From positions 1 to 34,424 of the IMG/VR virus record IMGVR_UViG_3300026094_000950: 34,424 nucleotides of DNA; one strand, written 5' to 3'. The translations under genes and the position numbers were made by a program. The notes under the pieces were generated by a model, which was not told the DNA's origin, made no database searches, and saw nothing but the letters and a program-made list of their open reading frames with translations. Numbering within the stretch: position 1 is the stretch's first letter; every line of letters starts with the position of its first letter. Shown one piece after another: positions 6,825 to 28,277 of the stretch. The DNA comes from a virus.

Positions 6825-6866
6825 TCTAACGCTTCTCATAATATTTCACAAAGAGATTATACCACA

Positions 6867-7679: not shown

Positions 7680-7684
7680 CAGTT

Positions 7685-8897: not shown

Positions 8898-8925
8898 GTT
8901 ATAGAACGTTTTTACATTTAGTCAA
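8898..8925 (-). promoter_or_regulatory. Possible sigma-70-type promoter for the PP-loop gene
   Basis: On the minus strand TTGACT (8920-8925), a 16-base spacer and TATAAC (8898-8903). The -35 box overlaps the TctC stop codon, and the predicted start point falls inside the adjoining hairpin, so whether transcripts pass the hairpin is uncertain. Confidence 0.45.
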
Positions 8926-9781: not shown

Positions 9782-9806
9782 TTAATTAAGTCTCCTATTT
9801 AGAATT

Positions 9807-9837
9807 TACATTGCAAAGTAATCTACCAAGCAATGTA
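9807..9837 (-). promoter_or_regulatory. Inverted repeat at the TctC transcription start
   Basis: An 8-bp perfect inverted repeat (TACATTGC / GCAATGTA) with a 15-base spacer begins 3 bases downstream of the TctC -10 box and covers the expected start point. It may be a repressor operator or a 5' mRNA stem-loop. Confidence 0.5.
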
Positions 9838-9840
9838 TAT

Positions 9841-9869
9841 ATTATATCATCGTTTAACATCGAAGTCAA
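9841..9869 (-). promoter_or_regulatory. Near-consensus sigma-70 promoter for TctC
   Basis: On the minus strand TTGACT (9864-9869), a 17-base spacer and a perfect TATAAT (9841-9846), in the 95-base gap between TctA and TctC. It would transcribe TctC separately from TctA. Confidence 0.8.
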
Positions 9870-9876
9870 GTGATTT

Positions 9877-11342: not shown

Positions 11343-12656
11343 TTATCGACGGTTAGCATAAAATTCTTCTAACCATGCAAAGTCGTTTATTTTCTGTAAT
11401 TCTTTTGGATTGTTTTTGTTTTCTTGACCAAATTTTTTGCCAGCAATAGCACCTTTGATAGCATCTATACCAAACGGTCTATTTACACCTTGATTGCACC
11501 ATACATCTAACCTCTGTTGTGTTTCTTGGTCATTTTGTCTATCTATAATACCGCTGGCTAATTTAGCACATTCTCTAAATCCCGACCTCCATGCACTAAA
11601 CGAATCTGTGTTAAATTGTGTAATATTTGAAATTTCAGGAACTGCTTTAAATTTACTAGATATAGAAGTTGTCATGTCTGGTTTAGATGTATCCATGTTA
11701 CGAGTTAAGTTCGTAGGAAGAAGTTTTACACCTCCATAACCGTATATTAAACCATTTACAGGATTTTTACTTCTCCATACATGCACAGCATCTTGATCCC
11801 ATTTAGGCACTTGATAGTCGAAATTAAAATTATTTATAATTTCAGCATCGCCGTCTACAACCCAAAACATAGTTGTATAAACTTGTTTTGCAGCTTCTCG
11901 ATGCGCATTATGTATGCCTTCTACCCCATGTACTCTTTTTACATTCGAAAACAGATTTTTAAGTTTTTGAAAATTTTCTTCTGCATTGGGTTCGTTATAG
12001 CTAATAAAAACTATGTCAAAAGTCTTAGGAGATGATGCTTGTGTGTCTACTTCTTTGGTTTGTGTGTAAAATCTGTATTGGAATTCTTTCTCTGTTACAG
12101 GTTTATTTTTATTGTGTAGGCTTATACCATCATAATAATTTTTGTTAAGAAATACATGGGTAAATTTCTCCCAGTATGGTGCTCGATAGCTGAAGTCGAA
12201 ATTATCTTCTACCATGATATCATCATACACAACCCAAAACATATCTGAACTTGATTTTTCGATTGCATTTATATATTCATCGTAGGTATTAAGATAAAAA
12301 ATGTCATAAGGCTTAGGAGTACTAGCTAAAATGTCTACTTCTTTTTTCTTTGTGAAAAACCTATGCTCGAATTCTTTTTTTGTAGGAAGATTGTTCTTTG
12401 ATATCAAACATAAACCGTCATAATGTTCTCCGTTTCGAAATACGTGTACTACATCTTGACTCCATCCGTCAGGAATATAAGAAAAATCAAAATCGGAATT
12501 AACAATTAAATCATCATACACTGTCCAAAAAAATCGAGTAAAACATTTTTGCGCAGCATCATCAAATGATTTTGCAAATTTAGCTGTAGGATACTGATCT
12601 TTAAAATTGCACCATGCAGTGTTTTTCGATTCTGCTATAAAGAAAATATCATACAT
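11343..12656 (-). CDS. Three-module glycosyltransferase-like protein
   Basis: A 437-residue protein made of three related modules. The last (about 213-437) is complete: FDIVFISYNEPNAEENF, KRVHGVEG, FWVVDGDAEI with a DxD-type D268-G-D270, VHVWRSKNPVNGLIYGYGGV. The first two (1-115, 116-212) keep the frame (DIFF/DIFY, FW.VYDD, HVF.N..YDG) but lack the NEPN/HGV part and have YDD in place of DGD. The modules are joined by linkers of the form KEF..RF.T..KEVD..AS.PK. The 299-residue protein at 23672-24571 is a single-module relative. The likely fold is GT-A; sugar-transfer activity is inferred from DGD only. A promoter lies directly before the ATG. Confidence 0.72.
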   Translation of the reverse strand: MYDIFFIAESKNTAWCNFKDQYPTAKFAKSFDDAAQKCFTRFFWTVYDDLIVNSDFDFSYIPDGWSQDVVHVFRNGEHYDGLCLISKNNLPTKKEFEHRFFTKKKEVDILASTPKPYDIFYLNTYDEYINAIEKSSSDMFWVVYDDIMVEDNFDFSYRAPYWEKFTHVFLNKNYYDGISLHNKNKPVTEKEFQYRFYTQTKEVDTQASSPKTFDIVFISYNEPNAEENFQKLKNLFSNVKRVHGVEGIHNAHREAAKQVYTTMFWVVDGDAEIINNFNFDYQVPKWDQDAVHVWRSKNPVNGLIYGYGGVKLLPTNLTRNMDTSKPDMTTSISSKFKAVPEISNITQFNTDSFSAWRSGFRECAKLASGIIDRQNDQETQQRLDVWCNQGVNRPFGIDAIKGAIAGKKFGQENKNNPKELQKINDFAWLEEFYANRR

Positions 12657-12700: not shown

Positions 12701-13429
12701 TTAAATTAAATTTTTTTCACGCAATAAGTTAAAAAGATAAATTGCATATTCGTCGTGTGCAGGTTTATAATGATGCCAATATTCAGAAAATTCATTATAA
12801 CCTAATGTAAATCGACAGTAAGGAAAATAAGCCTTGCTTTCATCCTCGGGTTCTGGATAATAGGTTTTATCGATCTTGTCAAGTATTGGTCCTGTATATT
12901 CTGTGCGTTCAATACCATTACACGAATTAAACATAAAATACGGAATTTCTAAAGACTTTAATATTTGCTGAGTAGAATAAGCTAATGTTGCTCTTTCATT
13001 TTCTTTTAAATGATAGTCGAACAGAATGTCAATAAATTTATTCAGTTTTTTCATCTTGTCATCAAGAATTAAATTTTTATGTGTTCCAGACGTGAAAGGG
13101 AAATATTTTCTATCTTCTAAATCTGCAAGGTTGTTATGTTCAAAATTGCTATTTTCAGAATATCTCAACTCCATCCTATCACTCGAAGTCCATCCTATTA
13201 GGAAAAAAACTTCTTTTGGACTTTCCATATAATTGGTTATGTATTCTATAACTTTTCTATGAATAAATTGATTACTTGCTCCATTAGCAGATACATTGAT
13301 ATATTCATAACCTAATTTATTGGCAAGTTGCGCAGCAAAACAGTTTTGTCTGTTGTAATAGCTTGCAGGGTTACCGTCTATATCTGCGCCCGCTGTGTGG
13401 CTACAACCCACTGCTACTAGAGTTTTCAT
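12701..13429 (-). CDS. SGNH/GDSL hydrolase-like protein
   Basis: A 242-residue protein. Near the N-terminus LVAVGCSHTAG holds the nucleophile serine in a GCSHT version of block I; NVSANGASNQF gives the Gly and Asn of the SGNH oxyanion set; near the C-terminus HHYKPAHDEYA supplies the Asp/His block. The family hydrolyses esters, for example acetyl groups on glycans or peptidoglycan. I chose ATG 13429 over the upstream ATG 13447 because it makes a 4-base ATGA overlap with the preceding radical SAM gene, as at other junctions here. The substrate is unknown; its place in a glycan-like operon suggests deacylation of a modified sugar or peptide. Confidence 0.72.
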   Translation of the reverse strand: MKTLVAVGCSHTAGADIDGNPASYYNRQNCFAAQLANKLGYEYINVSANGASNQFIHRKVIEYITNYMESPKEVFFLIGWTSSDRMELRYSENSNFEHNNLADLEDRKYFPFTSGTHKNLILDDKMKKLNKFIDILFDYHLKENERATLAYSTQQILKSLEIPYFMFNSCNGIERTEYTGPILDKIDKTYYPEPEDESKAYFPYCRFTLGYNEFSEYWHHYKPAHDEYAIYLFNLLREKNLI

Positions 13430-14772
13430 AGATAATCTCTTGTCCAAGGTATATAATTTTTTATGTCTACGTTACGGAAAGAATCGCTAGCATAGGTATT
13501 TCCTACAAAATGCTTCCAACTTTCGTCATTATTTTCTTCATCAATTAAATTTATCAAATTTTTAAAGTCTTCCAATTTATCTTGTTCCCAAGGTGGTATT
13601 TCTACAGTGTTTGGCAAGGCTTCGTAAACTTCCATTATCTTGTTTTTGGCGATTTCTTTTATTTCTTTAGGTAAATTCCTTACGTGCAACCACTCAGGTT
13701 CGTTTACTATATTAAAATGTGGCAACACGTTTTGAAATCCCCAATTATTCCAATTTTCGTCGTTATAATAATGCCAGTCCTTGTATTGATCCCTGCACCA
13801 ATATAACATTTTGTCTAAATCTAATATGTTTAACATACTTACAGTCGTATGAATGTGTACGGTAAATGATTCTCTTGATTCGGTAAATTTTTTTAATCTT
13901 TCTATATTTTTTTCAATCAGTTTCCATTTACTGGGATATCTAACATAATGAGCTAAATCTCCGATAGCATCTAAACTTAACGATAAGTTTATCGATTTAA
14001 AATGATCCCAAATATCTAATAAACGTTGTGGAAACATTGTTGCATTTGTATTATAATGAAGAGAGATATTAGAAGACCATCCTTTATCTATAATATGTTG
14101 TAGCCAATCATAATGCTCTTTAACTGCTAAAGGCTCCCCTCCTAGAAAATTAATAGTTTCTACATTAGGCAAGACTGGATCAAAAAAATTGTTTTCAAAC
14201 GCTTTTATATGCCAAGGATTGTCCTGCATAAACTTAGCAGACCTTATTGCATTTTCGTCCCAATTGGTATGAGGCATAGTTTTAGACTCTTCGATCCAAT
14301 GGTGGCTAGACCATGGGTTGCAACTCCTGCATTTCAAATTACAAACATTACCTAAAGTTATATCAAGATATTTTATAGCCTCCTTGTTTAAATACCCTGT
14401 TTCATCTATATAATGTAGTGTTTCATCAATTTGGTCCTTGTGCATCTCATTTTCAATCTGCCTTATGCTTGTAATTCCGGCATCTTCTCTCATCCAACAA
14501 AACTTGCAATTCTCTGGCTTTTCTCCATTTAACAGTGCTCTTCTAATTTCTATAAGTTCAGGATCATTAATGAAGTCTTCTATATTTTTTGCAACTTTTT
14601 GGTTTTTTAAGAAAGACCAAGAGCTAATATCAAGTCCTGTAGGATACGTTCTAGTTTTTCTACTATTGCTTACACAACACGATCGTGTCTTACCTGTGCT
14701 ATGCGTGCTTAATCCGTGAAATGCATAAAAACAAAATGTTTTATCTTTTATGTTATCATATTTTTTGCTCAT
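13426..14772 (-). CDS. N-terminal-twitch radical SAM protein (copy 1)
   Basis: A 448-residue radical SAM protein. The auxiliary cysteine set comes first: C14 (TFCFYAF), C32-C33 (RSCC) and CKFCW at 89-93. The core CNLKCRSC is at 144-151 and GGEP at 211-214, then a conserved block with LSLDAIGDLAHYVRYPSKW. It is the most divergent copy at the N-terminus (FYAFHGL in place of PW.H). ATGA overlaps couple it to the radical SAM gene before it and the SGNH gene after it. The N-terminal twitch family is known in marine phages and bacteria; its reaction has not been defined to my knowledge. Confidence 0.87.
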   Translation of the reverse strand: MSKKYDNIKDKTFCFYAFHGLSTHSTGKTRSCCVSNSRKTRTYPTGLDISSWSFLKNQKVAKNIEDFINDPELIEIRRALLNGEKPENCKFCWMREDAGITSIRQIENEMHKDQIDETLHYIDETGYLNKEAIKYLDITLGNVCNLKCRSCNPWSSHHWIEESKTMPHTNWDENAIRSAKFMQDNPWHIKAFENNFFDPVLPNVETINFLGGEPLAVKEHYDWLQHIIDKGWSSNISLHYNTNATMFPQRLLDIWDHFKSINLSLSLDAIGDLAHYVRYPSKWKLIEKNIERLKKFTESRESFTVHIHTTVSMLNILDLDKMLYWCRDQYKDWHYYNDENWNNWGFQNVLPHFNIVNEPEWLHVRNLPKEIKEIAKNKIMEVYEALPNTVEIPPWEQDKLEDFKNLINLIDEENNDESWKHFVGNTYASDSFRNVDIKNYIPWTRDYL

Positions 14773-15749
14773 ATTTTACTCTTTGTAATATTAATGTCTG
14801 CTGCACAGTGACAATGGTCTTTTGGACAGATAATACTTTGACTTAGTTCTGTGTCAAACTCTCCCTTTACAATATTTCCTACAATAGGACCAACTCCGCA
14901 GCTAGCCTGTTGAATTTTCCCGTCAGGGTGAATGTGAAGACTCTCATGAATGTTGCATTTCCATCCTTTGAAAAAATTCATTCCATTGGTAATTATTTTA
15001 TTTGTGTCAATAGGCTCAACAGCATCATTTTCCCAATGAACTTTAGCCCAAGCATAATTTGGTTGTTTTTTAATTTTTTCCTTTTGTTGTACTTCGGTAC
15101 TATTATGTTTAAAAAAATCCTGTTGCCATTCTGTGTCGTACTTCCAAGGATCGGTATGAGGTCTAAGCTCATCATAAACAGGTGCATACTCGATGATGTA
15201 GTTTTTGCATTGTTTTTTAATTTTTTTACCAAAATCAATACACTGTTGAAATTTATTTTCGTCATGATGCATCATTATTCTAGCACAAAGATAATTCTTT
15301 TTATCTTGTAAAAATTTATAATTTTCCAAATATTTTTCTTCTTTGCAGAATTCTGAATGATAGCTAGCAACAACATCCTCAAACAAGTAATGATATTCTT
15401 TCCACCACTTTAAAGAACGACTAAAATTTGTGTTAATACCTACACAACTACCGGGCCATTCTACTAAATCTCTAAACTTTTCAACAACTGGAACAAGACC
15501 CTGCCAATAAGTAGGTTCTCCCCCACTTAAAAACAATTTAAAGTATCTATATCCTTTATTTTGATAATATTTTATTATTTTTTCAAGAGTATCATTTATT
15601 AATGGTATATCGTGTTCGTTTTTATTTCTACCTGCCCAGTTCCACTCATTACAATAAGAACATCTAAAATTGCAAAAGTCGTTTACTTGCCATGCTATTG
15701 AAATCCATTTGTCTTTTGCAGGAATAATAGCCTTGATATCATTGTGCAT
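14769..15749 (-). CDS. Radical SAM protein with C-terminal SPASM-like cysteines
   Basis: A 326-residue protein. CNFRCSYC at 26-33 is the SAM-cluster motif and SGGEP at 75-79 the SAM-binding turn. After the core come C265, C284, C308, C313 and C315, in segments (KGWKCNIHESLHIHPDGKI, ASCGVG, CPKDHCHC) like the SPASM extension of peptide-modifying enzymes, including a DGKI-type strand followed by GNI. No N-terminal twitch set is present, which sets it apart from its neighbours. It overlaps the preceding gene by 11 bases and the next by ATGA. It may act on a peptide or on a small molecule; the sequence does not decide. Confidence 0.87.
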   Translation of the reverse strand: MHNDIKAIIPAKDKWISIAWQVNDFCNFRCSYCNEWNWAGRNKNEHDIPLINDTLEKIIKYYQNKGYRYFKLFLSGGEPTYWQGLVPVVEKFRDLVEWPGSCVGINTNFSRSLKWWKEYHYLFEDVVASYHSEFCKEEKYLENYKFLQDKKNYLCARIMMHHDENKFQQCIDFGKKIKKQCKNYIIEYAPVYDELRPHTDPWKYDTEWQQDFFKHNSTEVQQKEKIKKQPNYAWAKVHWENDAVEPIDTNKIITNGMNFFKGWKCNIHESLHIHPDGKIQQASCGVGPIVGNIVKGEFDTELSQSIICPKDHCHCAADINITKSKI

Positions 15750-16941
15750 TTAAAACCTCGCCTAGTTCGAGAAAAGTTTTGTAGAAATTAAAACGTCTAT
15801 ATCTATCATTAATCTCGATATAGGTTTTCATTCTTTCTAAAAGATCTTTAGAGTACTTATCGGTGTTTTTAGTGTATTCGATTATCCTGGCGATAGGATC
15901 TCTGTGAGATCTGGTATTAATAGTAGATAACTCTTCAATGGCTTTGTTTCGAACATATTCTGGCCATACGCAACTGTGTAATTGATCTGGATATTCTAAA
16001 AAGATTGGAACAAAATCTATTCTTCTGCGCTGTGTGTTTATAAGCCATTCAACTAACGGCTTAACATCAAAAATATTCCAGGCTTGATAGACAAAATATA
16101 TTTTTAACTGTACTTTTTCTGGAAGCCGCTGTGCTTTTTCAAAGTTTCTTTCAACTTTTTGCCAAGCAGTAGGATATCTAATATATTGGTTATGATCTCC
16201 GAAACCATCTATACTCATCTGTATTTCTGAACTATCAAAGAAATCTAGCTTATCATAAAATTCATCAGGCCAAGTAGTAAGGTTAGTTGTCCAGGCAACA
16301 TGACAAGACTGATTGCCGGTCTCTACTAATTTATCGATAACATATTTGTTTGCTTGTATAAGAGTTGGTTCTCCTCCGGTAAGATATAATCTCTTAAGAT
16401 GAGGAGCTACTCTGTCGATAAATCGTCGAAATTCTTCTGTTTCAAACCATTCCCAGTCGAATTTTTCTACAGATTTTACCTCATGATTCCATTGATCCGA
16501 TAACCACTCGGGAACTGATTCGTTTTGTAAAATCTTAGATCTTTCTTTGTATAATTGATCACTGCTTACACTCCAGCAAGAATTACATTTAAGATTACAG
16601 TGATTACCTAGACGAAGCTCTAGATGTGTAGGATCAAAAACTTCTGTGCTTTTTATAGGAAACTGTTTATTTGCCCACTGTCTACTGCTCTCTATTCCCT
16701 TATCTTCATGTTCGTAACACCTAGAGCATTCGCCTACAGGTTTTCCTGTAAGCATTCTTTCTCTAACTTTGGTCATATAACCGCCATGCCATATTTCATC
16801 GAATGAATCTTTTCCTAACACAGCATCTTTGCCATCTACTTGTATATAATCTTCGGTATATACGTGGCAACATAATTTACATCTACCGTCTGTGTTCGTA
16901 TGCAAATTTAACCAAGGATACACACAAAATGTCTCACTCAT
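15739..16941 (-). CDS. N-terminal-twitch radical SAM protein (copy 2)
   Basis: A 400-residue protein. N-terminal set: C6 (TFCVYPWLNLH), C21/C24/C25 (RCKLCC) and C72-x-x-C75 (ECSRCYEHEDKG). Core CNLKCNSC at 115-122; TGGEP at 188-192; MSIDGFGDHNQYIRYPTAW after the barrel midpoint. The C-terminal tail ends in the shared RRFNFYKTFLELGEV motif, comparable with the NFYKVFPEL and NFSSIFPEL ends of copies 3 and 4, so the paralogues share their C-terminus as well. It is coupled to copy 3 by an ATGA overlap. Confidence 0.88.
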   Translation of the reverse strand: MSETFCVYPWLNLHTNTDGRCKLCCHVYTEDYIQVDGKDAVLGKDSFDEIWHGGYMTKVRERMLTGKPVGECSRCYEHEDKGIESSRQWANKQFPIKSTEVFDPTHLELRLGNHCNLKCNSCWSVSSDQLYKERSKILQNESVPEWLSDQWNHEVKSVEKFDWEWFETEEFRRFIDRVAPHLKRLYLTGGEPTLIQANKYVIDKLVETGNQSCHVAWTTNLTTWPDEFYDKLDFFDSSEIQMSIDGFGDHNQYIRYPTAWQKVERNFEKAQRLPEKVQLKIYFVYQAWNIFDVKPLVEWLINTQRRRIDFVPIFLEYPDQLHSCVWPEYVRNKAIEELSTINTRSHRDPIARIIEYTKNTDKYSKDLLERMKTYIEINDRYRRFNFYKTFLELGEVLNAQ

Positions 16942-18137
16942 TCTATACCTTTTAGTTCTGGAAAAACTTTGTAAAAATTTTCTTTTCTAATTTCGTCCAT
17001 TTGTTTTGTTTTAAAAACAAATACAAATCTATCTTGTTCGTTATCAGTTTCCATAAATTGCAGTATACTTTTGTAATCATCAATAACAGAATCAATATTA
17101 GAAAACTGCTTCAAATAGTCAATATGTTCGTCATAACGAGTTCTGACTATATCCTTTTGCGCAGGTGTAAGTATTTGCAATCTCATGTAGGTAGGATCTA
17201 ACAAAATATTAATACGTAGATTTTGAGGTTCTAATAATCCTTCTTCTATCCATTCTTTATGAAAATCGGGTAAATTTAAAACATTGTAAGCACTAACTGT
17301 CGGAGTAATTTCGAAATAAACGTGCGGACACTGTTTAATCATTTTCCGTCTATTATCTACCACTTCACTCCATTTCATGTTTTTGCGCAAATATTCTGCT
17401 CTGTCATGATTAGCATCAATACTTCCTGCAACTCTTACATGTTCAAAACTATTCCAATAATCAAAAACACTTTTATCACGATAATTCATTTTTGTAAAGT
17501 TGGTAGTATAATCCATCTTTACATCTCGCTTTCCCATTTTCATCCATTTATCGAGTATTTTATAGTGTTCTTCTGTAATAAGAGGTTCGCCGCCTGCCCA
17601 ATACACCCTTTCTACAGATTCTAATAGAGGATCTAGTTCATCCATAAAATCCTTCATATCATCTCTAACAGTTAACATTTTTTTATGGCCAGGATCGCCA
17701 TGTACTTTTACATGATCATCAAACCAACTAGTAGAGAACTGCGGTCCGCAACTTCTACATTTTAAGTTACATAAGTTAGAAAATCGTATGTCCATATAAG
17801 CCATATTAACATCACCTGCAGAACCGTCTTCTGTTGTTTCTAAAACTTTGTAATGGTGATGTTTAAAATTTTCATTAGCACTGTTTCTTAATGTCCACAT
17901 GCCGTTTTCTTCTAATTCGTAACATCTTCGACATTCAAGACTTTTCTTTTCGTCTAGCATATTCAAACGCAGTTGACGCATTTGTTTGCCATTCCAAATT
18001 TCCTGTAAAGACTGTTTTTGAGTATCTCCAACAGGTAAATTAGGATCGCTCATACAGCAAGGATAAGTTGTCCCTGCAGGCCAAAGGTGCATGTGTGTCC
18101 AAGGAAGCATGCAAAATGTTTTAGTATCTTTATTCAT
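16938..18137 (-). CDS. N-terminal-twitch radical SAM protein (copy 3)
   Basis: A 399-residue protein. TFCMLPWTHMHLWPAG (7-22) with C9, YPCC at C27-C28, and CRRCYELEENG at 69-79 form the auxiliary set. Core CNLKCRSC at 123-130 and AGGEP at 181-185; SIDANHDRAEYLRKNMKW follows. The C-terminus reads RKENFYKVFPELKG. Its start overlaps the previous stop by 8 bases (ATGAATAA). It is the same length as copy 4 and the two look closest to each other (IRFSNLCN / VRFSNLCN and a matching GDTYPCC / GTTYPCC segment), pointing to tandem duplication. Confidence 0.88.
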   Translation of the reverse strand: MNKDTKTFCMLPWTHMHLWPAGTTYPCCMSDPNLPVGDTQKQSLQEIWNGKQMRQLRLNMLDEKKSLECRRCYELEENGMWTLRNSANENFKHHHYKVLETTEDGSAGDVNMAYMDIRFSNLCNLKCRSCGPQFSTSWFDDHVKVHGDPGHKKMLTVRDDMKDFMDELDPLLESVERVYWAGGEPLITEEHYKILDKWMKMGKRDVKMDYTTNFTKMNYRDKSVFDYWNSFEHVRVAGSIDANHDRAEYLRKNMKWSEVVDNRRKMIKQCPHVYFEITPTVSAYNVLNLPDFHKEWIEEGLLEPQNLRINILLDPTYMRLQILTPAQKDIVRTRYDEHIDYLKQFSNIDSVIDDYKSILQFMETDNEQDRFVFVFKTKQMDEIRKENFYKVFPELKGIE

Positions 18138-19329
18138 ATATTTCTTTAAGTTCTGGAAAAATTGAAGAGAAATTTTCGTTACGAATTTTATCTAGCCGTT
18201 TAGTAGTTTCTTTAAATTCAGGAATGAGATGGGTATTATCTTCGCTATACATAAATTCTATAATTTTTTCTAATCTTGATGTAATGTGTTTATGTCGACC
18301 TTGATCTATTGAATATTTTTCCAAAAAATCAAAAGTTTTTATTATGTTTTTTTCTGCTTGTTTTTTAAGATGGTATGGTAAAATTGTACAGCTTAAATAT
18401 TCCGGAGTTACTAACAAATTGTTAAGATTAATGTCGAAGTTATAAGCTAAATCGTTGTCGTAAAGGCATTCGATAATTTTGTCAATATCCATAATATTCA
18501 AAACTGATATAGTAGGACTTGGAATTATTTTAACATGCGGAACATTATCTCTAATCCAGCAGAGATTATCAAAAATCTTGTCCCACTTCTGTCCGTGTCT
18601 GGTATAATTTGCTTTTTCGCCTATTTGATCACAACTTACACCAAAAACAATATTGTCAAAATATTTCCAATAATCTTTCACGTGCTTGTCTTTTAAATGT
18701 AGTCTACTTGCATTACTATTATACATTAGTTTAGGAAAATGACCAATCTCAATTAGCCTATCAAGTAATTCATAGTGTTGCTGCATGAAAAGGCTTTCTC
18801 CGCCAGTAAAATAGATTTCTTCTGTGGTTTCTAATATTTCGTCTATTTCTTCCCAAAGATGTAGATAGTCTATTTCTACCACGCGACCTTTACCTTCCTC
18901 GTCCTCTGCCCAGCGTGAACTAAAATGAGATCCGCAGGTTCTACACTTCATATTACACAAGTTAGAGAATCTAACATCAAAAAAAGCAATATTTAATTTA
19001 TCTACTGTTCCGTCTTTTTTGGTTTGCACTACTAAATCTTGGTGGTGAGCATAGTCTTTATTCATTTTATATCTATAAGAAAAAACACCCTGCTTCTCAT
19101 AATCAAAACATTTCCTGCAACCATGTGTTGGTTTGTCTTCCAACATAGCAAGACGAAGTTCTTTCATCTTTTCGTTATTCCATACTCCTTTAAATCCTTC
19201 TTCGTTAACATTACCTATAGGAGTTTCATAATCGTAAGCGCAGCAAGGATAAGTGTCTCCGGACTGCCAAGTGCTTAGATGAACCCACGGTGCCATGCAG
19301 AAGTATTTTGGAAATTCAGTATCTGCCAT
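18130..19329 (-). CDS. N-terminal-twitch radical SAM protein (copy 4), GGES variant
   Basis: A 399-residue protein. Auxiliary set: C11 (YFCMAPWVHL), C29-C30 (YPCC), C71-x-x-C74 (CRKCFDYEKQG). Core CNMKCRTC at 125-132. The SAM-contacting motif is GGES (176-179) rather than GGEP; substitutions of the Pro occur in active radical SAM enzymes, so this is not evidence of inactivity. Later VSCDQIGEKANYTRHGQKW replaces the SIDG block of the other copies. The end is NENFSSIFPELKEIYE. It overlaps the preceding gene by 14 bases and the next by 8. Confidence 0.87.
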   Translation of the reverse strand: MADTEFPKYFCMAPWVHLSTWQSGDTYPCCAYDYETPIGNVNEEGFKGVWNNEKMKELRLAMLEDKPTHGCRKCFDYEKQGVFSYRYKMNKDYAHHQDLVVQTKKDGTVDKLNIAFFDVRFSNLCNMKCRTCGSHFSSRWAEDEEGKGRVVEIDYLHLWEEIDEILETTEEIYFTGGESLFMQQHYELLDRLIEIGHFPKLMYNSNASRLHLKDKHVKDYWKYFDNIVFGVSCDQIGEKANYTRHGQKWDKIFDNLCWIRDNVPHVKIIPSPTISVLNIMDIDKIIECLYDNDLAYNFDINLNNLLVTPEYLSCTILPYHLKKQAEKNIIKTFDFLEKYSIDQGRHKHITSRLEKIIEFMYSEDNTHLIPEFKETTKRLDKIRNENFSSIFPELKEIYE

Positions 19330-20590
19330 TTCTTAAATCCTGGTCTAATTTGTATATGTTAGGTAACACACTGCGAAATTTTCCTTTATCTAAAATACTA
19401 TCATCATTGCAGAAAACCAAATCTTCATGTTGAAATGTATCTTTACTGTACATTAGAGTAACTGCGCCTTCTAAGGCTTCTATTAAGAATTCTTTAGCAG
19501 GATCAATTAACGGAATATCAGTATATTCTAATGATTTTACAAAATTTAGTATTTTTTCTGCATAATAATCTTTATATGCCAATGGTAAACTTGTAATGCT
19601 ATATGGTAGGGGGTCAAAAGCAATATTTAGTGAAGGCCAAGATCGTTCGTTTAGGAGATTATTTTTGAACAAATAGGTATACATTGCAGGGAGATGTTCT
19701 ATATTAAGAATACTAACTACGGTATCTATATTTAAAAGTATATTTTCATAGTGTAACAGTTCTTTCATGTTGCTTTGAATTTTTAACCATTTTGTTCCTG
19801 TTCTTATTAATTCTGCAACGTCTCCAACACCGTCTATGCTAGCACCTAGTTTAATTTGTTCGAAATTTTTCCATATATCTGTTAGTTTCTTACCTTTATA
19901 ATTTATTGTACTTAAATTGGTATTATAACGTATTCTAACGTTATAGGCACCGTAACTATCTAGTAAATCAAGGACTTTATAGTGTTCGGGCATAATTAAT
20001 GGTTCGCCGCCTGCAAAATAAACTTCTTCGGCATGCGGTAAATGAGGCTTGAGTTGATCTATTATAGATTTTTTTGCATTTTCTTCTATCTTAAAATACT
20101 CTAGGTCGACTCTTCCTTCGACATCAGTATCTCTTTTTTTAATTGTTTCTATCCATTTAGTACTAAATGATCCTCCGCAAGTAGAGCATGCAAAATTACA
20201 GGTATTGCTAAATCTTATATCAATGTATTTAAATTTTGGGTTTTTTATACTTCCGTCATCATCGGTTTCTTCGACTAAATCAACGAATTTTCCAAAATCT
20301 GTATTAGCAAAATTTCTATAACTAAATCCTCCGGATTCGTCTACTTCGTGACACCTGCGACATATTGGATTTTTTATTTCATTTAGCATGTCTAAGCGAA
20401 GTTTCTTCCAATCGTCGCTGTTAAAAACTTCTTCAATTGTTTTTTCTTTTAGATTTTGATCTATGGTATCTTGTTCAGCGGTGCAACAGGGAAAAGCCTT
20501 TCCGTCTGGGTTTGCATATATGTGCATCCACGGAAATACACAGAAAGATTTACTTTCTTTTAATAAGAAATCTTTTTTATCCTCATTCAT
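19316..20590 (-). CDS. N-terminal-twitch radical SAM protein (copy 5)
   Basis: From ATG 20590 the protein has 424 residues. The auxiliary set is SFCVFPWMHIYANPDGK with one Cys, FPCC, and CRRCHEVDESGG; the core is CNFACSTC and the SAM turn AGGEP. ASIDGVGDVAELIRTGTKW follows. Another ATG nine bases upstream (20599) is possible, but the 20590 start gives an 8-base ATGAATGA overlap with the preceding gene, matching other junctions in the operon. The tail is longer than in copies 2-4 and ends in KFRSVLPNIYKLDQ, a degenerate form of the shared C-terminus. Confidence 0.86.
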   Translation of the reverse strand: MNEDKKDFLLKESKSFCVFPWMHIYANPDGKAFPCCTAEQDTIDQNLKEKTIEEVFNSDDWKKLRLDMLNEIKNPICRRCHEVDESGGFSYRNFANTDFGKFVDLVEETDDDGSIKNPKFKYIDIRFSNTCNFACSTCGGSFSTKWIETIKKRDTDVEGRVDLEYFKIEENAKKSIIDQLKPHLPHAEEVYFAGGEPLIMPEHYKVLDLLDSYGAYNVRIRYNTNLSTINYKGKKLTDIWKNFEQIKLGASIDGVGDVAELIRTGTKWLKIQSNMKELLHYENILLNIDTVVSILNIEHLPAMYTYLFKNNLLNERSWPSLNIAFDPLPYSITSLPLAYKDYYAEKILNFVKSLEYTDIPLIDPAKEFLIEALEGAVTLMYSKDTFQHEDLVFCNDDSILDKGKFRSVLPNIYKLDQDLRNGRY

Positions 20591-21761
20591 ATAGTGCATG
20601 ACCTATTTTTGTAATAAAATTATTAAAAGAAATTTTTCTAGTAAAAAAGTTATTCCAGTTGTGTTCTATTTTTGTTTGAGTTTGCAAATTATATTCAATT
20701 AATTCTTCTGTTGAAATGTTATTTAATTTTTCCATAAATTTCATGCAATCTTTAGGATTATCTATATGTTCAAATCTAAAAATTTCGTCATATAGTTTAT
20801 AACCTCTTTCTTTTAATCTCAAATTAATATTTGACCCTCCTATGGTTATAAAAGGGTGACTATGAACTATTGCTTTGAAAGTTTTTTCCGTAAGAAAATC
20901 ATGTGTTTCTAGGCTTTCTGTGATAATCGAAAGAGCACTTTTTTCGAAATACTCTTTGATATTAGATTGTAAATTGATTGGGTATTGTGCATCTAGTTTA
21001 TCTAATGGACTATCTTGAAAAAGTCTTTTATTTTTTTTAATTTTTTCAAAGAGAAAGTCATCATTATATTTCCTTAATTCTTCTTTAACCCATTCTTTAA
21101 AAACTAAACCGTCTTTCTTTGCAATTCTGGGTAGATAATAGCTATAAAAACTGTCTTCGTGCAATCCGGTTTTTAACAAATAATAATATGTCCAGACTCT
21201 ATGAATTTTAGCATTTCGATTTAAACATAGAGACTTTTTTTCAATTGCGTCCAAGTTTTCTATCCTACAGTCTGGTGTTATAAAACTTATATCATCTTTT
21301 GTTTTTAATAGATGTCGATAATATGCTTCCCACCATTCAGGAAAAGAAACGTATTTTATACCTGCAATTGTAGATCCATCTACCTTATAATCACTATTAG
21401 TAACGATTACTTTGTCTAACCTAAATCCTTGTTTTTTAAGATAAACAGAAAAATTGATATGATTTAAAGTTGCTTCGTGTGGCGAAAAAATCCATAAAAA
21501 AGTATTAGAATCATTATTAATTTTATTCTTTAAATCTCGAGAAATATATATCTTAGGAGTATGAGGTAAATGACAGATATTCAAAACAAGTTTGGTTGTA
21601 TTCTGAGGTAATACATCGATAAATTCTGATTTCCAAAGTAGACTATATCGAAAATCATCAAAAAAACCTAAATAGGATTCTATGTCGAATTGATTTTTAA
21701 TTAGAAGTGCCTTATACGGATTATTATTAGTTTCGCTAATAATTATCTTAAAATCATTCAT
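20583..21761 (-). CDS. Putative glycosyltransferase (TEKTFK..HPF type)
   Basis: A 392-residue protein without a standard DxD motif. The C-terminal third contains LSIITESLETHDFLTEKTFK followed by AIVHSHPFITIGG, then LKERGYKLYDEIFRFEHI. This E-K-T/F-K...PF arrangement resembles the nucleotide-sugar site of GT-B enzymes such as fucosyltransferases and exostosin-like proteins, and recurs in unassigned marine phage proteins. The N-terminal half (LWIFSPHEATLNHINF, KSLCLNRNAKIHRVW) fits the acceptor domain of such enzymes. It is coupled by 8-base ATGAATGA overlaps to the oxygenase-like gene before it and radical SAM copy 5 after it. The enzyme class is inferred, not certain. Confidence 0.55.
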   Translation of the reverse strand: MNDFKIIISETNNNPYKALLIKNQFDIESYLGFFDDFRYSLLWKSEFIDVLPQNTTKLVLNICHLPHTPKIYISRDLKNKINNDSNTFLWIFSPHEATLNHINFSVYLKKQGFRLDKVIVTNSDYKVDGSTIAGIKYVSFPEWWEAYYRHLLKTKDDISFITPDCRIENLDAIEKKSLCLNRNAKIHRVWTYYYLLKTGLHEDSFYSYYLPRIAKKDGLVFKEWVKEELRKYNDDFLFEKIKKNKRLFQDSPLDKLDAQYPINLQSNIKEYFEKSALSIITESLETHDFLTEKTFKAIVHSHPFITIGGSNINLRLKERGYKLYDEIFRFEHIDNPKDCMKFMEKLNNISTEELIEYNLQTQTKIEHNWNNFFTRKISFNNFITKIGHALYE

Positions 21762-22290
21762 TCAAAAATCCGCTTACCTGTAAAGTATATTTGTCATACA
21801 TTCCTGCATTTGCACTTAGATGTAAAATATCATTATCCCACATCCATCCTTCGCCTTGATTCCAATGAGTGCTATTATGCCATTCGTTATTTAATTGATA
21901 CTGTATAAAGTGACCTACGCTCCAGTTTTCTAGATATATGTTTGCTCTTACTTTCCTTCTTTTATCGTTAGGAAAACGTTTTCTAATTTGAAAGAAAGTA
22001 TCTCTATGAATAGGTATTATATTACCCGGGGGCTGAAGTATAGAACTAATAGTAATTACCTCCATACCAAGTTGGCTGCCTATGTAGTCAAAATCTACCC
22101 ATTCTCTATCCCACCATAACTGTCTAATTTTGGTGTTTTTATTTTCGTAACTATCTGGAAATCCTCCATAATCTTCATGTATATCCTTTAGTTCGTGTAC
22201 TTGATGGGCTATGCAGGAACCTTCATGAACTGAATAGTCTGCAGTTGTAAAGATATCAAAGTCATAGTCTAGATGTATTGCTTTTAACAT
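21754..22290 (-). CDS. 2OG-Fe(II) oxygenase / aspartyl hydroxylase-like protein
   Basis: From ATG 22290 the protein has 178 residues. It shows the iron triad pattern H95-x-D97 (IPIHRDTFF) and distal H157 (DILHLSANAG), set in a double-stranded beta-helix layout (RRKVRANIYLENWSVGHFIQ, GEGWMWDND). The residue binding the 2-oxoglutarate carboxylate is usually Arg; here the equivalent position appears to be K167 (DKYTLQVSGF). I prefer 22290 over the upstream in-frame ATGs because AGGAGA, overlapping the previous stop, sits five bases before it. Similar genes are common in marine T4-like phages. Expected role: hydroxylating a protein, sugar or small molecule; substrate unknown. Confidence 0.68.
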   Translation of the reverse strand: MLKAIHLDYDFDIFTTADYSVHEGSCIAHQVHELKDIHEDYGGFPDSYENKNTKIRQLWWDREWVDFDYIGSQLGMEVITISSILQPPGNIIPIHRDTFFQIRKRFPNDKRRKVRANIYLENWSVGHFIQYQLNNEWHNSTHWNQGEGWMWDNDILHLSANAGMYDKYTLQVSGFLNE

Positions 22291-22298
22291 TATTTCTC

Positions 22299-23675
22299 CT
22301 ATTGTTCCTTGCATAAATTCCAAAAATCTTGCATCTCAGGAAACGTTTCTACAAGACTTGCATTTCTTCTACGATCGTGTTCTGAAAACCATGCGTTAAA
22401 ATTTTTACGAGCAATAATTAATTTGTCTTCTTCATAATTAGTAGTTTCCATATAATCAACTACTCGCTTGAATTTTTCATATTCAAGATCTGTAAACTGT
22501 GTCCTATCAGAATTGTCTAGATTCTTTTTTATAAACTCTAAGTGACTATGCATATAAGGCATAAACTCGTTTTTGGGTAGAATGTTCATATCGAATATAG
22601 TAGGCTCTTTTAGATGAGGCGTATCAAAGCGAATTCTCTGCCACTGTGTTTCATTTTCGTCAGAATTGTACTTGGTTCTCCATTCTAGTATCTTTTCTAG
22701 AAGACTAGTAAAACTGGTAACGCCAAATATGTTAAATGTAATCATAAATGTCACAGGCAATCCTGTGTTTGACAAATAATAGTCAAGATTGCGTTCCCAT
22801 AATTTGATATCTAACCCATGTCGTGCGTACTCAGCCCGCTTACCCCAGGTATCAATAGAAGTATAGAGTTTAAAACTCTTAATAGCACTGATGCTGCGTA
22901 AATGGGTAATTCGATCTACCAATCGTTCTACCAGTTTGGGCTTAACTCCGAGATTAGAGTTAATTTCTATCTGTATATGCGGTTTAGGATCTTCTTCCAG
23001 TCTATCAAACAGATCCCAGGTGCTTTTGTGCATTAAAGGTTCGCCGCCGGTGATGCGCAGTATGTTCAGAGTCTTTGAAACTTCTGGCCACCAACGCCAC
23101 CATGCTTCTACGTAAGGGTTTTCTTCTTCTTTCTGATAGATTTTAAACCAGTCTATGTCCTGTCTGTGGTCTGTAGAAGCATCATAGGGGCCGTGGTCGT
23201 TGATCTCCTTCCAGTATCTTGAACTTGCTTTAGGATGGCAATATCCGCATTTGAAATTACACTCATTTGAAAAAGAAATTTCTATGTATTCGGGATTTAC
23301 ATTGTATTCTGCGCCGCCTTGCTTGATTTCTTCCAGTCTTTCCGGTGTGTAGATAGAAGCAGTTTTAATATGACGATCGGACACATAGTCTTTGCCCATT
23401 GCTTCTATCTTCCAGCAATAGGAACAGCCTGTGGGCTGCTTGCCTTTCATCATAAACTCGCGTTCTTGCTTCTTTTGTTGAGTATTATGAAGTGCAGACG
23501 GATTGAGTTTGAGTTCTTCTAGAGGTATTGGATGAGGCGCAGGATGATAACAACTATGCGTTTCACCTGTTTGAAGGTAGATCGTAGTATGGTGCCACTT
23601 TGCCATACAGAAAGTAGGCGATATCTCTTGATTTGTGTAAGGAATAATTTCCTTTATCTTTTCTAGTTCGCTCAT
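22299..23675 (-). CDS. N-terminal-twitch radical SAM protein (copy 6, most divergent)
   Basis: A 458-residue protein, the longest of the set. Auxiliary cysteines: C23 (TFCMAKWHHTTI), a single C42 (HSCYHP, where others have PCC) and C84-x-x-C87 (GCSYCWKIEAMG). The set still has four cysteines, so C42 marks which member of the CC pair is the likely ligand. Core CNFKCGYC at 139-146; TGGEP at 209-213; YTSIDTWGKRAEYARHGLDI follows. ETFPEMQDFW replaces the FPEL tail. It is separated from the other copies by the oxygenase-like and glycosyltransferase-like genes. Coupled by ATGA to the DGD-motif gene upstream. Confidence 0.87.
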   Translation of the reverse strand: MSELEKIKEIIPYTNQEISPTFCMAKWHHTTIYLQTGETHSCYHPAPHPIPLEELKLNPSALHNTQQKKQEREFMMKGKQPTGCSYCWKIEAMGKDYVSDRHIKTASIYTPERLEEIKQGGAEYNVNPEYIEISFSNECNFKCGYCHPKASSRYWKEINDHGPYDASTDHRQDIDWFKIYQKEEENPYVEAWWRWWPEVSKTLNILRITGGEPLMHKSTWDLFDRLEEDPKPHIQIEINSNLGVKPKLVERLVDRITHLRSISAIKSFKLYTSIDTWGKRAEYARHGLDIKLWERNLDYYLSNTGLPVTFMITFNIFGVTSFTSLLEKILEWRTKYNSDENETQWQRIRFDTPHLKEPTIFDMNILPKNEFMPYMHSHLEFIKKNLDNSDRTQFTDLEYEKFKRVVDYMETTNYEEDKLIIARKNFNAWFSEHDRRRNASLVETFPEMQDFWNLCKEQ

Positions 23676-24571
23676 TGTCTGCTTTTTAATATTCTAGGTG
23701 TGTTATGATAGACTCTTTTAAAAAATCTACTAGCATCTTCGTCAAGTAAAGCAATTTCTAATCCTAAATCAGTAGCAAGTGCATTTCCTGCTTGTTGTAT
23801 GTGAGAAATTAAGTCGTCATTTTGAATTTTAGAATAATGATTGTTCCACTGCTCTGTCAAATATTCAAAATCTCTTACTTGAGTATAATCCCAGTCTGTA
23901 CAGTTGGTTAAAAAACAGCCTTCTCTTGCTCCGTATATGCTCCATAGACCGTTTTCTACATCGGCTCCTACAGAACACCATATAAGTAGACGCTCTAGGT
24001 TTTGCCACCACACTGAATGAATATCTTTTACCGGAGCACCTTGATTTAAGCTCATCTTTACACCTTCTCTAAAGCCCGCTCTGAATGCTTGAAAGGGCGA
24101 AGCGTTTGTATATGAAGTGGAAAAGTTCTCATTAAATTGATAATACAAATCATCGAAGCAGAATTCTACTAGAGAGCGAGAATCAATGCCATCTGATGCT
24201 TCGTGAGTTTGCATATTGTTAACGAATTTTTTATTCCATAATTTTAAGCCGCCGTTGCCGTACATTAATCCGTTCACATGAATTTTACCGCACCATGAAA
24301 ACACATGCTCCACTGTTAATCCTAAGTCTTCGACGTCGATTTCTAAATTAAGGAATTCGGAGTTTATCTGATTGTCGCCGTCTACAGTTACAAAGTGTTC
24401 AGTGTCAGATAGTTCTGCGCAGGCTTTATGTGCTGCGTCAGATCCTTTTACACCATGTACTCTTTTTGCCCAAGGTATCTTTTGGCAGAGGTCTGCATAG
24501 TTTTTTTCGGCATTAGGCTCGTCATAGGATAAAAAGATAATGTCTTGCTCTACTATTCTAATTTTATTCAT
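23672..24571 (-). CDS. DGD-motif glycosyltransferase-like protein
   Basis: A 299-residue protein related to the third module of the gene at 11343-12656. Shared features are DIIFLSYDEPNAEKNY (10-25), KRVHGVKG (37-44), HFVTVDGDNQI (59-69, D64-G-D66) and VNGLMYGNGGLKLWN. DxD-type motifs bind the metal and nucleotide sugar in GT-A enzymes. The C-terminal part (FQAFRAGFREGVKMSL) also aligns by eye with FSAWRSGFRECAKLAS in the other gene. It starts within an 8-base ATGAATAA overlap. The family is common in marine T4-like phages, but donor and acceptor are unknown. Confidence 0.7.
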   Translation of the reverse strand: MNKIRIVEQDIIFLSYDEPNAEKNYADLCQKIPWAKRVHGVKGSDAAHKACAELSDTEHFVTVDGDNQINSEFLNLEIDVEDLGLTVEHVFSWCGKIHVNGLMYGNGGLKLWNKKFVNNMQTHEASDGIDSRSLVEFCFDDLYYQFNENFSTSYTNASPFQAFRAGFREGVKMSLNQGAPVKDIHSVWWQNLERLLIWCSVGADVENGLWSIYGAREGCFLTNCTDWDYTQVRDFEYLTEQWNNHYSKIQNDDLISHIQQAGNALATDLGLEIALLDEDASRFFKRVYHNTPRILKSRQ

Positions 24572-25139
24572 CTAGTATCCTTCTAAATTGGTAGGTGTCA
24601 AAGCGTCTTGCAGTAAAAACAGATAGAGGTGTGTTTTCTGTCTCAAACGGCATAGAAAAATCTATTACTGCGTAGTTATCATTTAATATGCGGGCAAAGT
24701 CTACAGAAAGAGTTTTGTAAAGTATATTAGGGTCGTGTTTTGCTGTAACAGAGAAAGACAATTTAGTGTTTAGCCTTATTCCTTTCTTGCGTAGATTCCT
24801 TTTTAACTGTTTCCCTAGTTTAATTCTCCAGCAGGTGTTTGGTTTATCCTGTTCTACAACGATATCAGCATCTTCTATTGTGTTTTCTGGTATTTCATAT
24901 ATAAAGTCATTCACACTAGACCCGTCAAAACTTTGTTGATGTTGATCTTGTAATTCTAGCTGTTTTGTTTTGGGATTATATTCAACTCTGTAATTTCTTT
25001 TTCGTTCAGTTCCATTCAATAAACCGATTACATCAGAAAGATGTACAGGAATCGAATTTTCATTCTCTGCTTTAGGAGAAATTCCTAATACTTTTCCTGT
25101 ATCTCGTTCAAAAATCACATACATTATAGTTTCAGACAT
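24564..25139 (-). CDS. Unknown protein in the glycosyltransferase operon
   Basis: A 191-residue protein that I do not recognise. It opens with MYVIFERDTGKVLGISPKAE after an in-frame MSETI; AGGAA nine bases before ATG 25139 supports the longer start. The sequence is rich in charged beta-strand-like segments (YRVEYNPKTKQLELQ, NTCWRIKLGKQLKRNL, ILYKTLSVDFARIL) with no catalytic motif and no membrane segment. The composition looks more like a phage structural or adaptor protein than an enzyme. It lies between a GT8-like gene (16-base overlap) and the DGD-motif gene (8-base overlap), so it is probably co-expressed with them. Confidence 0.7.
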   Translation of the reverse strand: MSETIMYVIFERDTGKVLGISPKAENENSIPVHLSDVIGLLNGTERKRNYRVEYNPKTKQLELQDQHQQSFDGSSVNDFIYEIPENTIEDADIVVEQDKPNTCWRIKLGKQLKRNLRKKGIRLNTKLSFSVTAKHDPNILYKTLSVDFARILNDNYAVIDFSMPFETENTPLSVFTARRFDTYQFRRILDE

Positions 25140-25954
25140 TTTTCATATTTCCTTATGATGTCATCTGTTACAAAATCGTTTTCTGTGTAATGAAATACAG
25201 TATCCTGCCTATGATTCCCTATTTTCAGTTGCAAATTCTCATCAAGATACACACCTACTTTGTCCTGCCAACGACTTTTTGGATTGCGCCACTGCTGGGC
25301 GCGAGGCTTCATATGGACTATTTCTGGCATATTCTGTTTTTGATTGGAAATTTCTCGGTCACAGTCTAGTATTTTAGAAACAATAGCAACAGTAATATCC
25401 ATACTGGGCTGTTTTGGATAGTATTCTTTGCAAAAATTACCATAAAACAGTTCCCAGTTGTTGTTTACTGTCTCTACCCACTCATAGAATTGTTTTGTCC
25501 AGTTGCATTTTTTAAAGTAGTGTAAAACATTGTAGAAATTAGGAAGATCGTTAGCAGTAAATGCTTTTCTATAGAAATCTGTTTGGATTAGTTCTTTCCT
25601 GTAAGTAAAAACCCTAGTAGGAAAATATAAATCGTAATTTTTGACAGAATTCCAAAAATATTCTAGATCTTGTAGTACTAGCACATCAGAATCCAGTACT
25701 ATAGTTTCGTCATAGGGTGTTGCATGATAGATCTTCCAACGATTTTCAGTTTTTAAAAGAGTATTATCTTGCTTGTACCACGGAATATCTATAATTTTGT
25801 CGAAAATTTCACGATGTTTATCATCTGCGACACAATTTGTAACAACACTTACAGGATATATGTTGCCGGCTGCTCGAATACTTAATGCAGCGAGGTATGC
25901 CTGACGAAAATACTCTTCTCCTTCGGCAAAAATTACAAATCCTCTAGACTTCAT
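25124..25954 (-). CDS. GT8-like glycosyltransferase (copy A)
   Basis: A 276-residue protein. It begins with RGFVIFAEGEEYFRQAYLAA, a GT-A nucleotide-binding start, and has TPYDETIVLDSDVLVLQDLE with D88-S-D90 as the DxD metal site, the arrangement seen in GT8 and related retaining transferases. EIVHMKPRAQQW in the C-terminal part may supply the second metal-binding His. The 11-base overlap with copy B and their matched starts (MTTRGIVVFA / MKSRGFVIFA) suggest a duplication. The donor sugar is unknown; cytoplasmic by lack of signal or membrane segments. Confidence 0.73.
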   Translation of the reverse strand: MKSRGFVIFAEGEEYFRQAYLAALSIRAAGNIYPVSVVTNCVADDKHREIFDKIIDIPWYKQDNTLLKTENRWKIYHATPYDETIVLDSDVLVLQDLEYFWNSVKNYDLYFPTRVFTYRKELIQTDFYRKAFTANDLPNFYNVLHYFKKCNWTKQFYEWVETVNNNWELFYGNFCKEYYPKQPSMDITVAIVSKILDCDREISNQKQNMPEIVHMKPRAQQWRNPKSRWQDKVGVYLDENLQLKIGNHRQDTVFHYTENDFVTDDIIRKYEKCLKL

Positions 25955-26831
25955 CTATACACCTATTCAAACTGAACTTGTTCATAGCATGTAGATTGGC
26001 ATTTTCGATTCTTATTGGAGTATATTCGCCGTCGTATGTAGGCTTTTCAAGCAATATTACAAGCGATCTATCCTGTATTTGCCATAAAATACTTTTATCT
26101 GTGATAAAATAGAGCGTACCGGGCATAGGTTTAGCAAAATCCCCAGTCTGATATCCGTTCATAATATGAATAGCCATAGAAAATGCATAGTCATTGCGGT
26201 AATAAGGAGAATTTATTTGAAAAATATTCTTATAATGATTCCAATTTTCTTGAATATGCTTTACTAGATCAAAAAATATTCGATTTTCTTGGGTTTTTCT
26301 AAAAAATATACAGGTAGCCCAGTAAAAATCTACCGAAGTATCTGAAACTCTTGTAAAATCGTCGCCTCTATCGCAATCTAGTAGTTCAGTTGCAGTTTTA
26401 TAAAGTAGTAAATTATGCTGTTGTTCGAAGCATTGTAAAAATATATCGTTAGAGATTACAATATCCGAATCCAATACCAGTGTTTCGTCGTAAGGAGATA
26501 CGTCATATACCACTGTTCTTGCTTCGTTCTTCCATTCTAGTTGTTTCGATACAAGCGCACCATCATAAAATTTCTTTTGACTGTGTTGTTCTCCGCGGGA
26601 CAACACTGTATCTTCAGTAGTATCTTCAGCCTTCCATACTATCGACACTACTTTATCAAACACAGTTTGCCAATCAGGATACTCAACATCCAAAAACTCT
26701 ATGCTATCTGTTACAAGCGTAGTAGGTAATCCAAGGATGTCTCTTGCTCTCTTTGCTAGGAAATGAGCCTGTTTTACATAATCAACTTGACTATTGTTTC
26801 TAGCAAATACAACAATACCTCTAGTCGTCAT
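25944..26831 (-). CDS. GT8-like glycosyltransferase (copy B)
   Basis: A 295-residue relative of copy A. RGIVVFARNNSQVDYVKQAH starts the nucleotide-binding fold, and SPYDETLVLDSDIVISNDIF carries D121-S-D123. It has about 30 extra residues before the DxD site (KAEDTTEDTVLSRGEQHSQK). The C-terminal His and Lys residues of copy A are not obviously conserved, so copies A and B probably differ in acceptor or donor. The start overlaps the previous gene by 11 bases within ATGACGACTAG. Confidence 0.72.
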   Translation of the reverse strand: MTTRGIVVFARNNSQVDYVKQAHFLAKRARDILGLPTTLVTDSIEFLDVEYPDWQTVFDKVVSIVWKAEDTTEDTVLSRGEQHSQKKFYDGALVSKQLEWKNEARTVVYDVSPYDETLVLDSDIVISNDIFLQCFEQQHNLLLYKTATELLDCDRGDDFTRVSDTSVDFYWATCIFFRKTQENRIFFDLVKHIQENWNHYKNIFQINSPYYRNDYAFSMAIHIMNGYQTGDFAKPMPGTLYFITDKSILWQIQDRSLVILLEKPTYDGEYTPIRIENANLHAMNKFSLNRCIDEV

Positions 26832-28251: not shown

Positions 28252-28277
28252 ATTAACGTCCTTTTAAGTGCGTACTT

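Follow-up and report, generated by a model that had tools for sequence, protein, structure and literature searches.

An ordered cassette of N-terminal-twitch radical SAM paralogues in a viral genome fragment

Radical S-adenosylmethionine (SAM) enzymes cleave SAM to form a 5'-deoxyadenosyl radical, which abstracts a hydrogen atom. A 34,424-base marine virus fragment from IMG/VR (record IMGVR_UViG_3300026094_000950; the whole stretch is referred to here as the window) encodes six paralogous radical SAM proteins, designated A to F, that are predicted to carry a twitch domain at the N-terminus (N-twitch), together with a seventh radical SAM protein, s (Table 1). The six copies are divergent, and the same members occur in the same order in other viral loci. 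Given that many phages keep the same ordered set, the cassette looks like a real multi-step pathway, which may well remodel sugars.

Radical SAM proteins of the window

The sequence-only reading of this DNA had reported six open reading frames with one order of motifs. Coordinates and motifs were verified for all six, which lie on the minus strand, and each matches NF033640 (N_Twi_rSAM, twitch domain-containing radical SAM protein; NCBIfam, curated cut-off 170 bits) at 312-398 bits across nearly the full model. The common motifs are FC, a cysteine (CC in five copies, CY in F), CxxC, CX3CX2C and GGE(P/S), with GGES in D only. Invariant columns of the A to F alignment include C14, C32, C89 and C92 (A numbering), CX3CX2C and GGE, and the last two are also invariant across approximately 700 relatives. 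CX3CX2C is the motif for the SAM [4Fe-4S] cluster of this superfamily. In the C copy the four N-terminal cysteines are C9, C27, C69 and C72. Chance or a motif artefact was ruled out by the profile scores and by conservation in these relatives.

PF04055 was found in A to F, in s and in the protein at 6867; the C copy lies slightly below the cut-off (28.4 versus 29.5 bits). The seventh protein, s, had been singled out for extra cysteines at its C-terminus. It is a radical SAM protein by PF04055 (32 bits versus 29.5), and its C-terminal cysteine pattern is kept among its relatives; no match of s to NF033640 is among those listed. An eighth radical SAM protein, encoded on the plus strand (6867-7679), had been overlooked.

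The coupled junctions noticed earlier are present as fourteen successive overlaps of 4-25 nucleotides, from 12701 to 27177, some of which may be overstated because start codons were picked mechanically. The coupled run continues past the radical SAM array through glycosyltransferase-like genes up to 27177, and it ends beside tail-fibre-like genes, which occupy 27229-33745. The interior of the array also holds two genes for proteins other than radical SAM enzymes (G at 20583 and H at 21754), which were absent from the sequence-only reading.

All seven proteins score below 45 bits against the MoaA equivalog, which requires at least 284 bits. Against the viperin (pVip) equivalog, which requires at least 180 bits, scores are 20-36 bits and cover the generic core only, and identification as a viperin or a defence gene was rejected. 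It is quite improbable that the copies act in nucleotide or nucleobase chemistry, through QueE/QueC-like DNA modification or by making viperin-like nucleotide products. Such a role would be consistent with the weak matches to the viperin models and to the QueE-like PHROG 2076, and with QueC-like PP-loop proteins in some related loci. However, none of the genes of the window was identified as QueD, FolE or DpdA-type, and one of the QueC-like proteins is fused to a MobA-like nucleoside triphosphate transferase domain, which is compatible with sugar activation.

A role in cofactor metabolism, in which the proteins would contribute to the synthesis of haem, Fe-S clusters or another cofactor in the host, in the manner of 'ahbD' auxiliary metabolic genes, seems very improbable. 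D weakly matches the AhbD and NirJ profiles, 261 ahbD genes have been called in Baltic Sea viral contigs (PMC9301287), and radical SAM genes are treated alongside Fe-S assembly genes in another report (PMC5332604). However, D reaches 19.7 bits against the AhbD haem b synthase equivalog, which requires at least 500 bits, and the match is limited to the cluster-binding stretch. In addition, no haem or sirohaem gene was recognized in the window, and a single cofactor step fits six divergent copies poorly. Because D matches AhbD weakly and in the cluster domain only, the Baltic Sea ahbD calls may in part be N-twitch genes.

The predicted N-terminal cluster domain and structure models

The PDB was searched with a profile of residues 1-100 from 34 relatives. 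BtrN (2-deoxy-scyllo-inosamine dehydrogenase, PDB 4M7S/4M7T) was the sole match (E = 8e-6, BtrN residues 164-238), and all four cysteines paired with BtrN positions 169, 187, 232 and 235, as counted from the printed alignment. These four cysteines are present in 690/690, 693/700, 704/704 and 704/704 of the filled rows of the alignment of relatives. The second cysteine of the CC pair is a cysteine in 80% of the relatives and is otherwise mostly tyrosine or histidine. The pattern described earlier as "CC or a single Cys" is thus explained, since the second cysteine is not a conserved ligand. Matches of alpha-1-antitrypsin structures to a profile of the six window sequences were deemed chance; they were gone with the larger alignment.

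According to a review (PMC9012708), the auxiliary cluster of BtrN has four cysteine ligands, as opposed to three in MoaA, is of low potential, and is the proposed electron acceptor in a two-electron oxidation, the dehydrogenation of an aminocyclitol. The same review describes the auxiliary domain of classical SPASM/twitch enzymes as a C-terminal extension of the radical SAM core. The auxiliary domain of A to F is N-terminal (residues ~8-80 in the C copy), whereas that of s is C-terminal; A to F can therefore be regarded as having a permuted twitch. By sequence, A to F are predicted to carry a twitch domain with one auxiliary cluster and four cysteine ligands that is homologous to that of BtrN. 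A full SPASM domain, with two auxiliary clusters and about seven cysteines, was not found in A to F, given four near-invariant N-terminal cysteines and a fifth in 80% of relatives. B, C, D and E match PF13186, a related domain.

C was modelled with AlphaFold2 at high confidence (Table 1), and the model includes a helical C-terminal extension. A Foldseek search with this model gave no full-length match, N-terminal cluster domain included, to any solved chain. The ranking was BlsE, followed by CteB, anSME and viperin, with template modelling (TM) scores of ~0.3-0.5. BlsE (cytosylglucuronate decarboxylase, PDB 7VOB) is the top match (E = 2.4e-6), but its TM-score to the C model is ~0.40-0.47 over just 228 aligned columns. 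BtrN shares the four-cysteine pattern of the twitch, but it is a protein of ~250 residues with a C-terminal twitch, unlike the N-terminal twitch of A to F and the helical extension of the C model. The model of s is also confident and is closest to SuiB, anSME, ChlB and MoaA (TM ~0.45).

Gene order, phylogeny and selection

Scanning with the C copy gave 40 viral loci; the six-protein alignment as query added 80 viral loci and 77 loci in bacterial genomes. A tree was built from 512 representatives, and gene order was read by clade assignment rather than from BLAST labels, because spurious open reading frames between genes made the label count too strict. A to F fall in six separate clades. The order D-C-B-s-A is found exactly in 23 viral loci, and the order F-E-D-C-B-s-A in the window plus three loci (L002, L008 and L040). 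Other combinations of the clades occur in about ten further loci, including L025, in which the same members are reshuffled (F-B-s-E-D-C-A). When clustered at 95% nucleotide identity of C, the 28 conserved loci examined fall into 18 groups. Shared descent of the six copies is supported. Phylogeny and gene order had been named earlier as a possible refutation of the array, through unrelated acquisitions without a shared order in any other genome; with six clades and an order that recurs in other viral loci, the outcome favours the finding.

In the comparison of the window with its close relative L002, the radical SAM genes have ratios of non-synonymous to synonymous substitution rates (dN/dS) of 0.028-0.123, indicating that each copy is maintained. 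The earlier suggestion of specialization over redundancy is borne out by the separate clades, with nearly always one member per locus, and by purifying selection on every copy. Gene-dosage amplification, in which the copies would be recent tandem duplicates that lack distinct roles, is suggested by the tandem arrangement, but seems scarcely tenable for copies that are only 22-35% identical in pairwise comparison, that have orthologues in many phages in each of six clades, and that are individually under purifying selection. Recent duplication was ruled out by the tree together with these identities.

The cassette occurs in at least two different gene neighborhoods. That of the window adjoins glycosyltransferase-like and fibre genes. 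In the D-C-B-s-A group the cassette adjoins other phage genes; G lies immediately upstream of it, and SGNH genes usually follow downstream.

Table 1. Radical SAM genes of the window and the genes that accompany them.
Name	Positions	Strand	Description	Evidence and occurrence
8th	6867..7679	+	Eighth radical SAM protein, 270 residues, C-terminal cysteines	PF04055 31.6 bits (cut-off 29.5)
M	11343..12656	-	437 residues; C-terminal half homologous to T1	34% identity over 209 residues
N	12701..13447	-	DUF6071 protein resembling SGNH hydrolases (GCSHTAG), downstream of A	PF19547 34.8 bits (cut-off 27)
A	13426..14772	-	N-twitch radical SAM paralogue, 448 residues	NF033640 344 bits; own clade, 23 sequences/23 loci, support 1.0
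s	14769..15749	-	Radical SAM, C-terminal auxiliary cysteines, 326 residues	PF04055; AlphaFold2 predicted local distance difference test (pLDDT) 92.1; relatives in 92 loci
B	15739..16941	-	N-twitch radical SAM paralogue, 400 residues	NF033640 312 bits; clade 14 sequences/14 loci, support 0.998
C	16938..18137	-	N-twitch radical SAM paralogue, 399 residues	NF033640 398 bits; AlphaFold2 pLDDT 96.4, predicted TM-score (pTM) 0.92; clade 20 sequences/18 loci
D	18130..19329	-	N-twitch radical SAM paralogue, 399 residues, GGES	NF033640 373 bits; clade 10 sequences/10 loci, support 1.0
E	19316..20599	-	N-twitch radical SAM paralogue, 427 residues	NF033640 349 bits; clade 7 sequences/6 loci
G	20583..21761	-	Conserved cassette partner, 392 residues	Upstream of D in conserved cassettes; in 62/80 carbamoyltransferase loci
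H	21754..22323	-	Putative non-haem iron/2-oxoglutarate-type oxygenase, 189 residues	HRD...H (HxD...H) motif, read from sequence
F	22299..23675	-	N-twitch radical SAM paralogue, 458 residues, CY not CC	NF033640 316 bits; clade 14 sequences/14 loci, support 0.984
T1	23672..24571	-	Recurrent partner, DxD-bearing, transferase-like, 299 residues	Relatives in 63 of the examined N-twitch loci
T3	25124..25954	-	GT-A/mannosyltransferase-like glycosyltransferase, 276 residues	PF11051 24.8 bits (cut-off 22)
T4	25944..26831	-	T3 paralogue, 295 residues	24% identity to T3, E = 5e-12

Partner genes and neighborhoods

G has no match in Pfam, PHROGs or a PDB profile search; its TEK motif may resemble that of GT10 fucosyltransferases. 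H has no Pfam match; its HxD...H motif suggests a putative non-haem iron oxygenase that would use O2, within an array that the sequence-only reading took for an oxygen-sensitive pathway. N-type proteins come after A in most cassettes. T1 has no Pfam match; it and M, to which it is homologous, flank the radical SAM array, one on each side. Relatives of T3 are accompanied by N-twitch radical SAM genes in 41 of 45 loci.

The neighborhoods of the relatives contain carbamoyltransferases of the NodU type, nucleotide-sugar dehydrogenases, group 1 glycosyltransferases and SGNH/DUF6071 proteins, as well as Asp/Asn hydroxylases, nitroreductases and the QueC-like PP-loop proteins. N-twitch genes number 3.77 per 20 kb around the carbamoyltransferase (65/80 loci) and 1.96 around the GT8-like gene (41/45 loci); in the background control, with loci centred on the VWA gene in related phages, the figure is 0.15 (5/80 loci).

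Two small proteins are conserved in the related loci. A basic peptide of 33-34 residues ending in KRDPFIYK is found at L149:14762-14863 and in ~35 other loci; in most of these 36 loci it lies upstream of, and usually adjoins, the carbamoyltransferase gene. Its position and its PFIY ending are reminiscent of DUF5989. A protein of 74 residues (LQxESARAL...GPGKDV) is found at L129:13296-13526 and in 12 other loci, in most of which it directly follows a class I methyltransferase-like gene and precedes a radical SAM gene.

It is unlikely that the cassette modifies a peptide or protein, such as a tail fibre or other phage structural protein or a small peptide, as do the SPASM/twitch maturases of ribosomally synthesized and post-translationally modified peptides (RiPPs). 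Such a function would be in keeping with the fold of s, which resembles the peptide maturases SuiB, ChlB and anSME, with the resemblance of C to CteB and anSME next after BlsE, with the end of the coupled run by tail-fibre genes, and with the place of the 74-residue protein, which in most of its 13 loci is flanked by a methyltransferase gene and a radical SAM gene. However, the coupled run of the window has neither a precursor gene nor a gap for one, and the mark of a RiPP cluster, a precursor gene beside the maturase, is absent from the window; a host-encoded or structural substrate falls outside that mark. The search for small open reading frames that gave the two conserved proteins as candidate precursors in other loci found neither of them in the window. 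In addition, the 33-residue peptide travels with carbamoyltransferase genes, and the 74-residue protein has no obvious variable core.

The window most likely comes from a large tailed phage. The protein at 33749 has its nearest cultured relatives in jumbo phages (Sinorhizobium phage Phosso and Agrobacterium phage Atu_ph07), and the VWA-type protein at 1037 is common to large myoviruses too. No tRNA was found in a search of the window. Three fibre-like proteins at 28281-33745 have a common N-terminal region with 28-37% identity and are apparent paralogues. The region 5092-8837 encodes a DegT/DnrJ sugar-type aminotransferase, a nitroreductase-like protein, the eighth radical SAM protein (plus strand) and a PP-loop-like protein (LLYTGGTDS, minus strand), and is possibly a second tailoring module. 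Within 8918-11214 on the minus strand, a membrane protein of a tripartite tricarboxylate transporter (TctA family; PF01970, 195 bits) adjoins a secreted, solute-binding-like protein without a Pfam match; the pair is unusual for a phage.

A possible carbohydrate pathway

A to F may well oxidize a carbohydrate in successive, BtrN-like radical SAM reactions, the carbohydrate being assembled together with neighboring glycosyltransferases; this tentative reading is suggested by gene company and by resemblance to BtrN and BlsE. The product of BtrN is a ketone, and its auxiliary cluster probably takes up an electron. A to F would be dedicated, non-interchangeable enzymes acting one after another on a nucleotide sugar, a lipid-linked glycan or a polymer. 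Each copy would form the 5'-deoxyadenosyl radical, abstract hydrogen at its own position of the substrate, and oxidize or rearrange it once; the copies would differ in the position attacked or in the intermediate used. The auxiliary cluster, being fully ligated, would accept the electron as in BtrN, for a net two-electron oxidation, and the product would be a keto, epimerized or otherwise altered sugar. s and the eighth protein might supply further radical steps. The glycosyltransferases would attach the product to a surface glycan, so that a glycan of the phage itself or of its host would be changed. In the window, the link to glycans is the PF11051 glycosyltransferase-like protein and its paralogue, both inside the same coupled run. 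The carbohydrate reading also leans on BlsE as the closest solved fold.

Several observations weigh against a carbohydrate substrate. Chromosomal arrays in Bdellovibrionota (e.g., L072 and L086) lie among housekeeping genes, with no obvious glycan genes. G and T1, the commonest partners other than radical SAM proteins, fit no assignable family. With whole-chain TM-scores of only ~0.4 to solved radical SAM enzymes, the fold does not reveal the class of substrate. The enrichment of N-twitch genes near the glycan-related genes is partly built in, because the queries, including the carbamoyltransferase, were picked from N-twitch loci; moreover, the VWA background represents a different genome region, and the matches come from related phages.

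Distribution and significance

Loci with at least five N-twitch genes are common, and the maximum is nine in 21 kb. At L064 and L168, 13-14 proteins with CX3CX2C occur in 21 kb each, and several of them belong to another radical SAM family, of the CPMC type; these are motif counts only and overstate certainty. Bacterial copies are concentrated in Bdellovibrionota, with up to 20 NF033640 copies in one genome (G003 is among the carriers). Above the NF033640 cut-off are 30 of 114 sampled Bdellovibrionota genomes, four of which were prior known carriers, and the family was found in three of 200 sampled genomes of the phylum of Poseidonocella, Poseidonocella itself included. The bacterial loci are mostly from metagenome bins, and a few look viral. 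The search of cultured phages with C matched Vibrio phages K566/K567, at 24% identity, and a single-cell contig, and nothing else; s has no match there. K566/K567 carry several radical SAM genes of the family. The family is frequent both among marine viral contigs and in Bdellovibrionota, and we know of no characterized member.

The sequence-only reading regarded the array as a pathway that it did not recognize as described. That view needs qualification, as the family is named and radical-SAM-rich marine phages have been reported. A marine T4-like genome (TARA_ERS488813_N000010) has 12 radical SAM genes (PMC5332604), and pelagimyophages have radical-SAM cassettes in their host-recognition regions (PMC7029224). 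The window resembles these phages in carrying many radical SAM genes, a likeness by description rather than by gene identity; the available text of both reports gives counts or mentions of cassettes, without analysis of family, order or subfamilies. Likewise, A to F match NF033640 over nearly its full length, but the name and description of the model are silent on tandem arrays, subfamilies and function, and the analysis presented here adds six members plus s in a fixed order. A literature search, with subscription papers and preprints outside its scope, gave no description of N-twitch arrays, their subfamilies, a conserved order or an N-terminal SPASM domain. The family is therefore already known, whereas the ordered cassette and its subfamilies, not found described, are the new part.

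A more speculative possibility is that marine and jumbo phages share with predatory Bdellovibrionota an undescribed toolbox of permuted-twitch enzymes, each contributing one step to an unusual modification of a sugar or surface glycan, and that phages exchange this toolbox as an ordered cassette, which would serve during infection or in host recognition. For annotation, N-twitch genes may be misread as auxiliary metabolic genes of haem synthesis (ahbD). Radical SAM enzymes are seldom kept in sixes. The fixed order of non-redundant copies in ~18 phage groups indicates that a single phage requires several of them at once, with a product and a series of radical reactions still to be discovered.

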